The notes beneath the pieces were generated by a model. It searched no databases and was not told the DNA's origin. It worked only from the letters and a program-made list of their open reading frames with translations. Positions 14,022 through 18,565 of a stretch of DNA of 64,000 nucleotides are shown here, piece by piece. A program made the position numbers and the translations under genes. Source of the stretch: Flavobacteriales bacterium (lineage in GTDB: Bacteria > Bacteroidota > Bacteroidia > Flavobacteriales_D > Crocinitomicaceae); NCBI GenBank assembly GCA_947497485.1, contig CANMHB010000014.1, positions 32,598 to 96,597 on the forward strand. Direction: 5' to 3'. Position 1 is the stretch's first letter; each line of letters opens with the position of its first letter.

Positions 14022-14291
14022 CTACAACGAAATTACACCCTTTATTTCGGATGCTTTTTGATATTTTTCAATGATTTGTTCAACGGAAACAGCTACTTCT
14101 TTCACACTAACGCTCACGTAGTTTCCTTTACCCGATTCGTGGTAGGATATTTCTGCTGTTTCACCATCAAATAAAGCGGTAACCTGAGCCAATTTTTCAT
14201 TTTCGTTTGGAATGATAAACTTGTATAAATACAAATTTGGCCATTCCATTAAATCCAACTGCGCTCTTAGTTTATCAAAAATATCCATCAA
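14022..14291 (-). CDS. DUF493 family protein
   Basis: 89 aa; 'WPNLYLYKFIIPNENEKLAQVTALFDG...KGNYVSVSVKEVAVSVEQIIEKYQKASEIKGVISL'. Confidence 0.8.
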   Translation of the reverse strand: MMDIFDKLRAQLDLMEWPNLYLYKFIIPNENEKLAQVTALFDGETAEISYHESGKGNYVSVSVKEVAVSVEQIIEKYQKASEIKGVISL

Positions 14292-14371: not shown

Positions 14372-14977
14372 TTAATTCGTAACATTTAAAGCGCTTTCAA
14401 CAACCATTATCACTCCTGTTGATTCATTTTTCACCACAACGTTGATTCCGATCGTTTTTCCAACCTCAATTTCTGAAATTAAACTAGCTGGAATAATATT
14501 GCCTGAACATTGTCCGTTATTAACTCCCAAAACTTCGATAGAAATCACGTTATATTCCATTGAAATTATTGGGCTATCAGCGCTTTGTCCAACCGTTATT
14601 TTTGATCCGCTCCCTTTGGAAACAGTACTTGTCAATACAATTGGATCAGGAATTGGCCGCACGAAATATTCAATGCTATCGGTTCCGATTATTTTTCCAT
14701 TTTGATTAGACACCGGAAAATTAACAACTAATTTGCCGAGTTCCTTCGGTATAATAATGAAGCCTTTGGTTCCTTCTTCAAACTCAAATTCTTCAATTGA
14801 TACACTTTTAGCAATTGGAGTAAAAACAATGCCGTCTTTTGATGCAGGTAAAACTTTGTTCTTGTAGCCTTGGTAAAGAAAATTATATTCAGGCATGGCA
14901 AGCGCCTTTTGCACTTGTGATTGAATTTTTATCCAAGAGTTGATAAATAGAAATAAAAGGGCTATTTTGATTTTCAT
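14372..14977 (-). CDS. Secreted GldM C-terminal-domain-like protein (paralog 1)
   Basis: 201 aa, signal peptide, 'PEYNFLYQGYKNKVLPAS...YFVRPIPDPIVLTST'; resembles the GldM 'NVLYxGVDNP...RVKRIPDP' region. Confidence 0.6.
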   Translation of the reverse strand: MKIKIALLFLFINSWIKIQSQVQKALAMPEYNFLYQGYKNKVLPASKDGIVFTPIAKSVSIEEFEFEEGTKGFIIIPKELGKLVVNFPVSNQNGKIIGTDSIEYFVRPIPDPIVLTSTVSKGSGSKITVGQSADSPIISMEYNVISIEVLGVNNGQCSGNIIPASLISEIEVGKTIGINVVVKNESTGVIMVVESALNVTN

Positions 14978-14988
14978 AAAAGCATAAA

Positions 14989-15573
14989 TTAGTTTGTAAC
15001 TTTTAGGGATGAAACAATTGTGGAATCTGCTCCAGTTAGAATATCCTTTATTTTAACTGTAACACCAACATGGTTTCCCACTTTAATTGATTTAACGGCT
15101 TTGCCTGGAATGGTTCCGCCCGTATAATCTTGATCTTGTATATTTACACTTAGTACCTCATATGAGCGTCGAATAGGAGCACTGGTAGATAAACCACATT
15201 GAATGTTGGCTCCACTGGACTTTGAAATGGTTTGATTTTGGACTCCTACCATTGGGAAGGCTTTTACTTTGTAAAAGACAGTATCAAAAATAATCCATTC
15301 ACCATTAATTTTTGCCTCCTGAACAATAGGAACAATCCTTGTTCCAGCACCAGGCTTAACAATATATCCTTTTTTTCCTTGAAAAGTAGTAGGAGTAGCA
15401 GTCGTTCCTTCTACTAAAATTCTATTCTCTTCAGCACCAGTTGCCTCAGGAATGATAACATTATCATACCCACGATAAAGAATATTTAGTTCGGGTTGTT
15501 CTGCAACAACTGTAACTTGAGCTTTTAGAAAACTAAAAGGGATAATATACAATATAACAAATAACTTTTTCAT
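14989..15573 (-). CDS. Secreted GldM C-terminal-domain-like protein (paralog 2)
   Basis: 194 aa, signal peptide, 'QPELNILYRGYDNVIIPEATG...FYKVKAFPMV'; same length and layout as 14372-14977, both ending L(N/K)VTN. Confidence 0.6.
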   Translation of the reverse strand: MKKLFVILYIIPFSFLKAQVTVVAEQPELNILYRGYDNVIIPEATGAEENRILVEGTTATPTTFQGKKGYIVKPGAGTRIVPIVQEAKINGEWIIFDTVFYKVKAFPMVGVQNQTISKSSGANIQCGLSTSAPIRRSYEVLSVNIQDQDYTGGTIPGKAVKSIKVGNHVGVTVKIKDILTGADSTIVSSLKVTN

Positions 15574-15578
15574 AATTT

Positions 15579-17018
15579 CTAGTATTGAATTACATTTTCA
15601 TCTATTTCGTAGCAATGAATTAGTTCCTTAAGTTCATCTACCTTCATTTTTCTAACTTTGTTTGACATGATTATCTTTTTCCAGGCAAAATCTTCATTTT
15701 GATTAAAGGGAGCAAGCTCTTCCTTTAATAGTTCTGAGATTTCGTCTAACATTGGATCAAATCCGTCTCCAAACGCCATTAAAACCTGAGGTTTCTGACT
15801 ATAACCTTTTTTATTATCTAAACGCTCTGTGAATAGAAGTTGACTAAAGATTGTTTTGAACTTACCAGTGGAATCGGAAGAAAAATTTCGTTTTAAATAA
15901 AGCGCTGGATTCGGATAATCAACCCAATAGGTTAATTCTAAATCTGGAAATCGCAATGATTGATTTTCTCCACAAGCCTCATATTGCGTTTTTAATGACT
16001 GTAACGATATTGTTCCTTTCTCAGAAATTCGAGACAATGCTCCAAATATTTCAGGATTATAATTTGGTGCATTACCTTGTGTCGTTAGTCTCGTAAACCA
16101 AGCTTCAAAAGACTCTTGCTTCGATTCTCTATAAAGAATTGATTTCGTGTAATCTTCATCATCTCCCTCTATTTCCCAACTTGCACCGGGCAAAATACGT
16201 TTAATTGAACTCGATTTGTTGTAGTATTTAAATTCATCTTCATTAAAATCATCGAAAAGATTTGAATAGCGATAAGGCTTCCAGTAATCTGATATTGCAT
16301 ATACTGGATATTCAGGTCCGTCAATTTCTCTTTTCGCTAATTGAAATTCACGTAACTTACTTGTAATTTTTTTGGATATATCTTCATTTAAATAATCGAA
16401 CCTCCCTAATTGATTAATCTCATTAAGTGTTAACTGTAAACAGATATAATATTTGTTTTCATACTGTGACTTCTTGGCAAAATAAACATTTTCGGTATTC
16501 AGAATAATTAATTCGATATCATTAACATCATAGTAATTAATTAATGGCGGTCTTCTTACAATTAAACTAGCTGGAGCCAAGTTATATTGTTGTTCTAACT
16601 CTATTTTATTCGTTCTTGTCAGAGGACCAAAAACAGCCGGATCGAAATCGGGTTCTTTCCCTTGGGTAGTTAATCGATTGAACCAATCATCAAAGCTTTC
16701 GGAATCTGAATCACGCATTAAAATAGTTCTTGTTGCATTCTCATCATCTCCTTCTATTTCCCAAGGCTCTCCAGGCAATGCATAATTCTTCAACCCATCA
16801 ATTGTATGAAAACTCTCAATTGATAATCCTTTTAATACACCATCTGAAGATCCAAGATTTGTAATTAAACCTTGATTTTGAACCAACATACTTACCAAAG
16901 AATTTGGATCATTATAGTCAAAGAGAGCTTTATTTTTTTTGTTATTTTCAAAAATTGTGAAAGTTTGCGCTTGAACGAAACTAGAGAATAGAATACTCAG
17001 TATAATTAGATTTTTCAT
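15579..17018 (-). CDS. Secreted hypothetical protein with an internally duplicated WEIEGDDE module
   Basis: 479 aa, signal peptide; aa 81-135 and 276-330 are clear copies (LPGxxWEIEGDDExxTxxILxRxSxxESFxxWFxRLTTQGxxPxxxPxxFGxLxR). Confidence 0.65.
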   Translation of the reverse strand: MKNLIILSILFSSFVQAQTFTIFENNKKNKALFDYNDPNSLVSMLVQNQGLITNLGSSDGVLKGLSIESFHTIDGLKNYALPGEPWEIEGDDENATRTILMRDSDSESFDDWFNRLTTQGKEPDFDPAVFGPLTRTNKIELEQQYNLAPASLIVRRPPLINYYDVNDIELIILNTENVYFAKKSQYENKYYICLQLTLNEINQLGRFDYLNEDISKKITSKLREFQLAKREIDGPEYPVYAISDYWKPYRYSNLFDDFNEDEFKYYNKSSSIKRILPGASWEIEGDDEDYTKSILYRESKQESFEAWFTRLTTQGNAPNYNPEIFGALSRISEKGTISLQSLKTQYEACGENQSLRFPDLELTYWVDYPNPALYLKRNFSSDSTGKFKTIFSQLLFTERLDNKKGYSQKPQVLMAFGDGFDPMLDEISELLKEELAPFNQNEDFAWKKIIMSNKVRKMKVDELKELIHCYEIDENVIQY

Positions 17019-17051: not shown

Positions 17052-17957
17052 TCAACTTTTCTTTGATGTTACATAAACGCCCACAAAGATAACGAGCATA
17101 TATCCAACCTTTTCTAACGTAATTGTTCCGGTGTAATCAGCAGACCACCCTAACAACGCAAAAGTCCAAGCGAACAAGATGACCATTATCGGTTGGGTAT
17201 AAATGTAAGAACTAGATACTGTCGGACTTAAATATTTCAAACCATACATTGTAAGTAAATAGGTAAGAAAAGTTACCCCAATGATTACATAAGATATTTT
17301 TAAAATGATTTCAGATGTGAATGTGGAATAATTCGTTGCTAAAAATTCAGGAATCGTTGGCGGAAAACACAACACGAAAAGTAGCCCAAATGTGAAAACC
17401 CATGTAATAACAGTCAATGGTTTGTAGCGTTGCATGAGTGGTTTTACAATTACCAAATAAATGGCATAACTCAATGAATTGATAAATAAAAATAAGTCAC
17501 CAAGAGAAGAATCTCCCTTTGAGGTTGCACCTTTCAATGTCAATAAAATTGCACCAAGCGCTCCGATTATTATTCCAATGCTACGAACAAGTGTAATTCG
17601 CTCTTTTAAAAGGAAAAAAGACAAGATCACAACCATTATTGGATTGAGTGCCATAATAATTCCCGAATTGAACGCAGAAGATAAATTCAATCCATGAAAG
17701 AAAAACAATTGATTTATTGCAACGCCGAAAAGTCCGCATGCAATTAATCGAGCAAAATCCGATTTTGCTATTTTTTCTCTTCCATTAATGGAAATAACCA
17801 ACCAAAATAATGCAGTTGCTCCCATCACGCGAAATAGAATAAAAACATTTGGGGATAGAAATTCTGGCATAACACCTTTTGCTAAAACATGACTAGCACC
17901 ATAAAGGACATTCACAAAAAGCAGCGCAAGATGAGCTTTCAGATTATCTATTTTCAT
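17052..17957 (-). CDS. EamA/DMT family transporter
   Basis: 10-TM profile; 'ALLFVNVLYGASHVLAKG', 'NPIMVVILSFFLLKERITLVRSIGIIIGALGAILL'. Start MKIDNL at 17957 overlaps the upstream stop (ATGA). Confidence 0.9.
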   Translation of the reverse strand: MKIDNLKAHLALLFVNVLYGASHVLAKGVMPEFLSPNVFILFRVMGATALFWLVISINGREKIAKSDFARLIACGLFGVAINQLFFFHGLNLSSAFNSGIIMALNPIMVVILSFFLLKERITLVRSIGIIIGALGAILLTLKGATSKGDSSLGDLFLFINSLSYAIYLVIVKPLMQRYKPLTVITWVFTFGLLFVLCFPPTIPEFLATNYSTFTSEIILKISYVIIGVTFLTYLLTMYGLKYLSPTVSSSYIYTQPIMVILFAWTFALLGWSADYTGTITLEKVGYMLVIFVGVYVTSKKS

Positions 17958-18565
17958 TTTGAAAAGAAATTCCAACGAGTTCTTAAAACGGTTTTTCGGA
18001 ACTCATCAAGTTTTTCCGTTACGTTTGCCTGATCAAATTTCTTTAACAATTTCAAAGTGCCTTTACCTTGCTTATAATCCATTTCATCTTCAAAAATTGG
18101 AATTACAGCCAGGAAATTAATTGTTTTACCTTGAATTAATATGGGCGAAAGTTCCGTTCTTAATTCAATAGGTTGAGCAAATATGAAGTGATTTTGAAGC
18201 ATTTTCTCTGACAATGACACAAGTGGTTTCCCTGTAGCCAAAGTATGACCATTTCCAAACCACGTATTTTTTTCAATTACATGTTTTTTCAATTTTTCCA
18301 ACCAAATGAATACCCAATTCATATTCGGATTTTGAATGTCTTCTAGTTCCCAATAACTTGGTAGATAATAATATAATTCATTGAACTCCTCCCCTATATG
18401 TTTATCGTGAACATTCATTTTAAAATCAGACAAACCGATGGTCATTAAAATTTTGTTTCCATTTTTATTTTGAGGAGTAATCATTAGGAATTCTCCAAAT
18501 TCATTGGAAATTTTAGATATCTCGCTGTCAAAGCGTTTGGAAAGTTCCTCGAGCAAGTGTTGCAT
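17954..18565 (-). CDS. Suppressor-of-fused (SUFU) domain protein
   Basis: 203 aa; 'FNELYYYLPSYWELEDIQNPNMNWVFIWLEKLKKHVIEKNTWFGNGHTLATGKPL'. Confidence 0.8.
   Translation of the reverse strand: MQHLLEELSKRFDSEISKISNEFGEFLMITPQNKNGNKILMTIGLSDFKMNVHDKHIGEEFNELYYYLPSYWELEDIQNPNMNWVFIWLEKLKKHVIEKNTWFGNGHTLATGKPLVSLSEKMLQNHFIFAQPIELRTELSPILIQGKTINFLAVIPIFEDEMDYKQGKGTLKLLKKFDQANVTEKLDEFRKTVLRTRWNFFSK

Follow-up and report, generated by a model that had tools for sequence, protein, structure and literature searches.

The window, a 64,000-nucleotide stretch of Flavobacteriales DNA, carries on its minus strand a cassette of three genes, here called NL, ML1, and ML2. Since NL contains two variable segments of the kind found in GldN and the two ML proteins contain the D3-D4 domain pair of GldM, the cassette supplies counterparts of both partners in the GldM-GldN contact. 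We see an even chance that it serves the type IX secretion (T9SS)/gliding motor as a periplasmic accessory which engages the GldM-GldN interface, a function that we infer from homology, linkage, and co-variation. The original prediction proposed a detached accessory module that binds the T9SS; the detached D3-D4 modules are upheld, T9SS binding would be the best reading of the sequences, and the relationship of the first gene to GldN had been missed. No description of stand-alone GldM-like or GldN-like proteins was found in the literature searched, the coverage of which was incomplete, and this is consistent with the earlier view that the system is undescribed.

NL (15579..17018, read from 17018 to 15579) encodes a protein of 479 amino acid residues, comprising a signal peptide, a conserved N-domain (FDYNDPNSLVSMLVQN), and two GldN-insert-like units. 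After a gap of 5 nt it is followed by ML1 (14989..15573, read from 15573 to 14989; 194 residues) and, after a further 11 nt, by ML2 (14372..14977, read from 14977 to 14372; 201 residues), each consisting of a signal peptide and GldM D3-D4; these and all features below lie on the minus strand. The gene positions, spacing, and signal peptides are as originally described: all three proteins begin with a hydrophobic N-terminal leader ending at AQ or SQ. Neither a lipobox cysteine nor a transmembrane stretch after the leader was seen in the three sequences, in agreement with the proposed lack of a membrane anchor in the two small proteins. NL, ML1, and ML2 have no Pfam or NCBIfam match to a T9SS C-terminal sorting domain. 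At the cassette no RNA family was found, and no promoter or terminator signal exceeded the shuffled background. The flanking genes are located at 14022-14291 and 17052-17975; relatives which possess both have them on different contigs, which indicates that the cassette junction is special to the lineage of the window. No clean empty site was found.

That gldK, gldL, and gldN are missing was correctly noted for the window; it does not apply to the genome, in which gldK, gldL, gldM, and gldN are found together on contig C1, the cassette being on C14. With a complete operon elsewhere, the cassette is an extra and not a replacement.

ML1 and ML2 are paralogs, as first suggested, with 30% identity end to end (E=1e-22). 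Residues 28-104 of ML1 (15262..15492) match the third GldM domain of Pfam (GldM_3rd, PF21602) with E=2.8e-4 and 21.5 bits, which is under the gathering cut-off of 25.2 bits; a relative, L042, scores above it (31.9 bits). The match of ML1 to TIGR03517 (E=5.7e-4, 18.8 bits) does not reach the equivalog threshold of 180 bits, and ML2 has no Pfam match of its own. A profile constructed from four ML proteins alone finds D3-D4 of the full-length GldM of the same genome with E=3.4e-44 over model positions 22-194; this match also covers the D4-like domain of ML1 (residues 105-194; 14992..15261), which was delimited by alignment to that GldM. The ML proteins align with their own GldM through the last residue, the C-terminal ends being SLKVTN in ML1 and VLKVTN in the resident GldM. 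The AlphaFold2 model of ML1 (pLDDT 80) was used for the proposed structural comparison, and its best matches in the PDB proved to be the GldM/PorM C-terminal structures 6ey4, 6ey5, and 6ey6 (probability 1.00; E from 2.6e-6 to 1.8e-5), over both domains. The modest TM scores of 0.37-0.46 indicate that the domain pair is correct and that the interdomain angle of the model is uncertain. On sequence and predicted fold together, both ML proteins are D3-D4 modules of GldM that have become detached.

The original prediction assigned to these proteins the layout of the periplasmic part of GldM, which is accurate for D3-D4 and too broad for the rest, D1 and D2 being absent. Compared with GldM/PorM (TIGR03517; PF12081, PF21601, PF21602, PF12080), with which they share the D3-D4 pair in sequence and predicted fold, ML1 and ML2 have a signal peptide that runs straight into D3, no N-terminal transmembrane helix, no match to PF12081 (GldM_1st) or to the second-domain model PF21601, and no gldL alongside. 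PF12080 (GldM_4th) matches neither the ML proteins nor their own GldM. This GldM is the canonical one (L010 7916-9661), and nothing else in the genome matches PF12080 at E<=1, which places D4 of this lineage outside that model.

Phylogenetic analysis of ML and GldM sequences reveals that 32 ML rows and 27 GldM rows are intermixed. A single ML clade, and with it the idea of one ancient ML family, is rejected (AU p=8.8e-5), at least five changes being forced by well-supported branches. In these sequence comparisons ML is polyphyletic relative to GldM and tracks the resident GldM.

NL, originally listed only as a gene of the secreted cassette, is no unrelated secreted protein: a phmmer search with the GldN of the same genome recovers NL with E=1.1e-35 in two domains, which are two copies of that protein's own variable segment. 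GldN proteins of this genus mostly measure about 411-471 residues (377-402 in one lineage), versus 282-312 in other families of the order, and the 228 model positions of the Pfam GldN family are stretched across residues 53-433 of the own GldN. The extra part is an insertion immediately ahead of the strand I/V-x-AYNIKEDW; it is a trait of the GldN of this genus, not of the GldN family, and it is present in NL. A profile of 32 GldN inserts locates copy 1 at residues 81-162 (16533..16778; i-E 3.9e-11) and copy 2 at residues 277-359 (15942..16190; i-E 1e-7), the latter sharing 52-56% identity with the own GldN insert. Since the region common to NL and GldN is about 80 residues and the conserved GldN core is missing, NL is not called a member of the GldN family: PF19841 gives no match to NL as against 162.6 bits for the own GldN, and the whole-protein profile-profile probability is 69%. 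NL thus resembles GldN/PorN (PF19841) in the variable segment ahead of a strand ending in KEDW, present twice and matching the type carried by the GldN of the same genome, but differs in lacking the core and in having its own N-domain (FDYxxPxSLV). Across lineages the N-domain is similar and the inserts are mostly dissimilar. AlphaFold2 modeling of NL from a two-sequence alignment gave a pLDDT of 35.

Extra GldN-related proteins in the same cell occur also as paired, closely spaced GldN copies in other genera (G126:C1, G172:C31, G262:C15, and G026:C1); whereas each of these neighboring copies is a complete GldN, NL is a scaffold of two units that occupies a separate genomic site and is accompanied by ML proteins. 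G172 also has two full GldM proteins, and such loci represent duplicated motor parts. The NL-type proteins of genus g26 (L165 2747-5176; L166 1-1808) possess long C-terminal extensions with KGKKGLIDTRGNVLIPYKYNDLY-like repeats.

The insert types of GldN are nearly unalignable between lineages of this one genus, and the NL inserts follow them. Those of the window score 132 and 236 against their own GldN; the corresponding values are 26-30 for the median of the other GldN proteins and 70-73 for the best-scoring NL of a different lineage. Over seven lineages, NL inserts have a mean score of 110 to the GldN of their own lineage versus 34 to those of other lineages, the own-lineage GldN is the best match in six of the seven, and only one of 5040 permutations of the lineages reaches the observed fit, i.e., the observed pairing is the best one; since the segments were delimited manually and the lineages grouped after the types had been seen, this is a strong description and not a formal p-value. 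Within lineages the own GldN copy often does not stand alone as the best match, and four NL proteins (G337b, G005b, G099, and G264) have no match to the resident GldN. Sequences from two other genera show the same trend, though with less uniformity. The GldN of G172 (g26), used as the query, finds through this segment the NL-type proteins of G172 and its close relative G354 with 63%, 57%, and 54% identity. In a ranking over 63 GldN segments, carried out after the pattern was known and with the "a" copy of G354 left outside, the own copy came first for three of nine g26/g27 proteins (G172, G298, and G366) and second to eighth for the rest, the best matches of which are mostly GldN of the same genus. 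Part of the NL/GldN co-variation may be due to gene conversion.

The earlier expectation that the three genes are conserved together in other genomes is borne out. A second species (L009, contig CANHMH010000009.1) has NL, ML1, and ML2 in the same order at 66-71% identity in a different gene neighborhood, NL being 71% identical to its homolog there and ML2 67% identical to the second ML protein. When 86 genomes belonging to the genus were searched, 19 NL-type loci in 17 genomes were examined; an ML gene directly follows NL in 15, the four exceptions being G024, G264, G266, and G328. ML and NL are also fused into single proteins in G354 (L168), G166 (L171), and G016 (L172); in the 656-residue reading frame of L168 the ML part is matched at 2e-26 and the NL part at 2e-14. 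Solitary ML genes, without NL, are numerous, as in Fluviicola taffensis (G126), a species of which strain RW262 glides. In a sample of 299 genomes of the order, the matches listed for the ML profile outside this family, presumably the Crocinitomicaceae of a GTDB-style grouping, are to full-length GldM only. The three window genes have dN/dS values of 0.17, 0.28, and 0.30 relative to their L009 homologs, and all NL and ML pairs tested fall within 0.10-0.30; the cassette genes are under purifying selection. Between the genome of the window and G337 (L009 for the cassette), dS is 0.8-1.1 for the cassette and about 3, near saturation, for gldM/gldN; the far lower value suggests, from one genome pair and few genes, that the cassette was horizontally transferred.

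Two genomes contain unusual motor genes beside NL-type and ML genes. G179 (L120 5115-7382) encodes a natural 755-residue fusion of GldL_N, GldM_1st, GldM_2nd, and a D3-D4 part, and G132 (L119 1378-2832) a 484-residue GldL_N-GldM_1st protein ending after GldM domain 1, after which come one NL-type and two ML genes. Both genomes also carry a normal gldKLMN operon, and their GldN inserts, which are of a different type, are matched within their own NL-type proteins.

In Porphyromonas gingivalis, D4 of PorM binds loops 4 and 6 of PorN, as supported by a cysteine crosslink, PorM S460-PorN A241 (PMC12421860). The PorM tip is predicted to lie in a cleft between two PorN copies, an interface of weak prediction confidence and little conservation (PMC12635249). 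The own GldN was aligned with the PorN chains, W47 serving as the anchor (chain number minus 21). In this numbering the turn P158-S161 of PorN, which docks in PorK, comes after the strand AYYVKEEWYFT, and the GldN insert joins the opposite end of this strand; from this placement the insert is probably on the PorM-facing (GldM-facing) side. Tandem segments in NL could recreate one such cleft.

On this basis a mechanism may be proposed. ML1 and ML2 would represent the tips of the GldM arms (D3-D4) minus the motor and membrane anchor, and NL would be a carrier displaying two variable GldN segments. The tandem segments of NL would then form a soluble version of the GldN-GldN cleft, and the ML pair a soluble version of the GldM tip. 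Using this interface, the three proteins would presumably bind one another, the resident GldM and GldN, or both, with the result that motor force would be either modulated (as by a clutch, cap, or adaptor) or diverted (as by a decoy). A further reading, which we hold tentatively at somewhat less than even chance, is that of a family of soluble "mock contacts": NL-ML complexes which, where force is transmitted, would act either as decoys or as a clutch, and whose interface segments would evolve in step with the GldN and GldM of the host genome.

An accessory that, by its sequences, mirrors both sides of the contact may be compatible with any of three roles: clutch or adaptor, decoy, or part of a second motor. 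We find it unlikely that the cassette belongs to a second, separate motor or track, the arms and track proteins of which are encoded away from the membrane stator. The GldL-GldM fusion of G179 and the G132 protein without D2-D4, each adjoined by NL-type and ML genes, would suit such a motor, but the genome of the window contains just one GldM and lacks a GldLM fusion, most cassettes have no adjoining motor gene, and NL lacks the GldN core expected for docking on GldK. Slightly less credible again is a decoy system in which NL and ML mimic the surfaces of the resident GldN and GldM and absorb a periplasmic motor inhibitor encoded by a phage or competitor. Soluble, multi-copy mimics which match the resident variant fit this proposal, and an arms race would account for the strong differences in the GldN insert, unalignable as its types are between lineages of one genus; against it, we know of no such inhibitor, and in the maps, where such genes were annotated unsystematically, no defense or phage genes were seen adjoining the cassettes.

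The polyphyly of ML, together with tracts of 65-77% DNA identity between cassette and resident genes in several genomes, could also mean that these are duplicate fragments of gldM and gldN, homogenized with their resident counterparts through gene conversion or recurrent duplication and without a role in the motor. We rate this a shade below the inhibitor-absorbing decoy, given the low dN/dS of every NL and ML pair tested, the conserved gene order and NL scaffold, and the three ML-NL fusions. In the window itself, identity to the operon is 66-71% over about 90-215 bp, and tracts this short and diverged give no support to a recent conversion event as the origin of the match. Ig-like adhesion proteins that are secreted or displayed on the surface, with no connection to the motor, would likewise carry signal peptides and could explain the weaker Foldseek matches to Ig adhesion proteins, yet GldM/PorM rank best, no T9SS C-terminal signal family is among the Pfam matches, and the co-variation with GldN and GldM points elsewhere, making this explanation very improbable.

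For the accessory acting at the GldM-GldN interface, the NL and ML mimics suggest that this contact is regulated or targeted. The many natural variants of the GldN segment with matching soluble mimics, together with matching GldM-tip mimics, constitute co-variation data for a force-transmitting contact, and the NL and ML proteins are testable soluble reagents for a contact of the rotary motor. Should the mock-contact reading be true, this contact would be under strong diversifying selection, and mimic proteins devoted to it would regulate or defend it.
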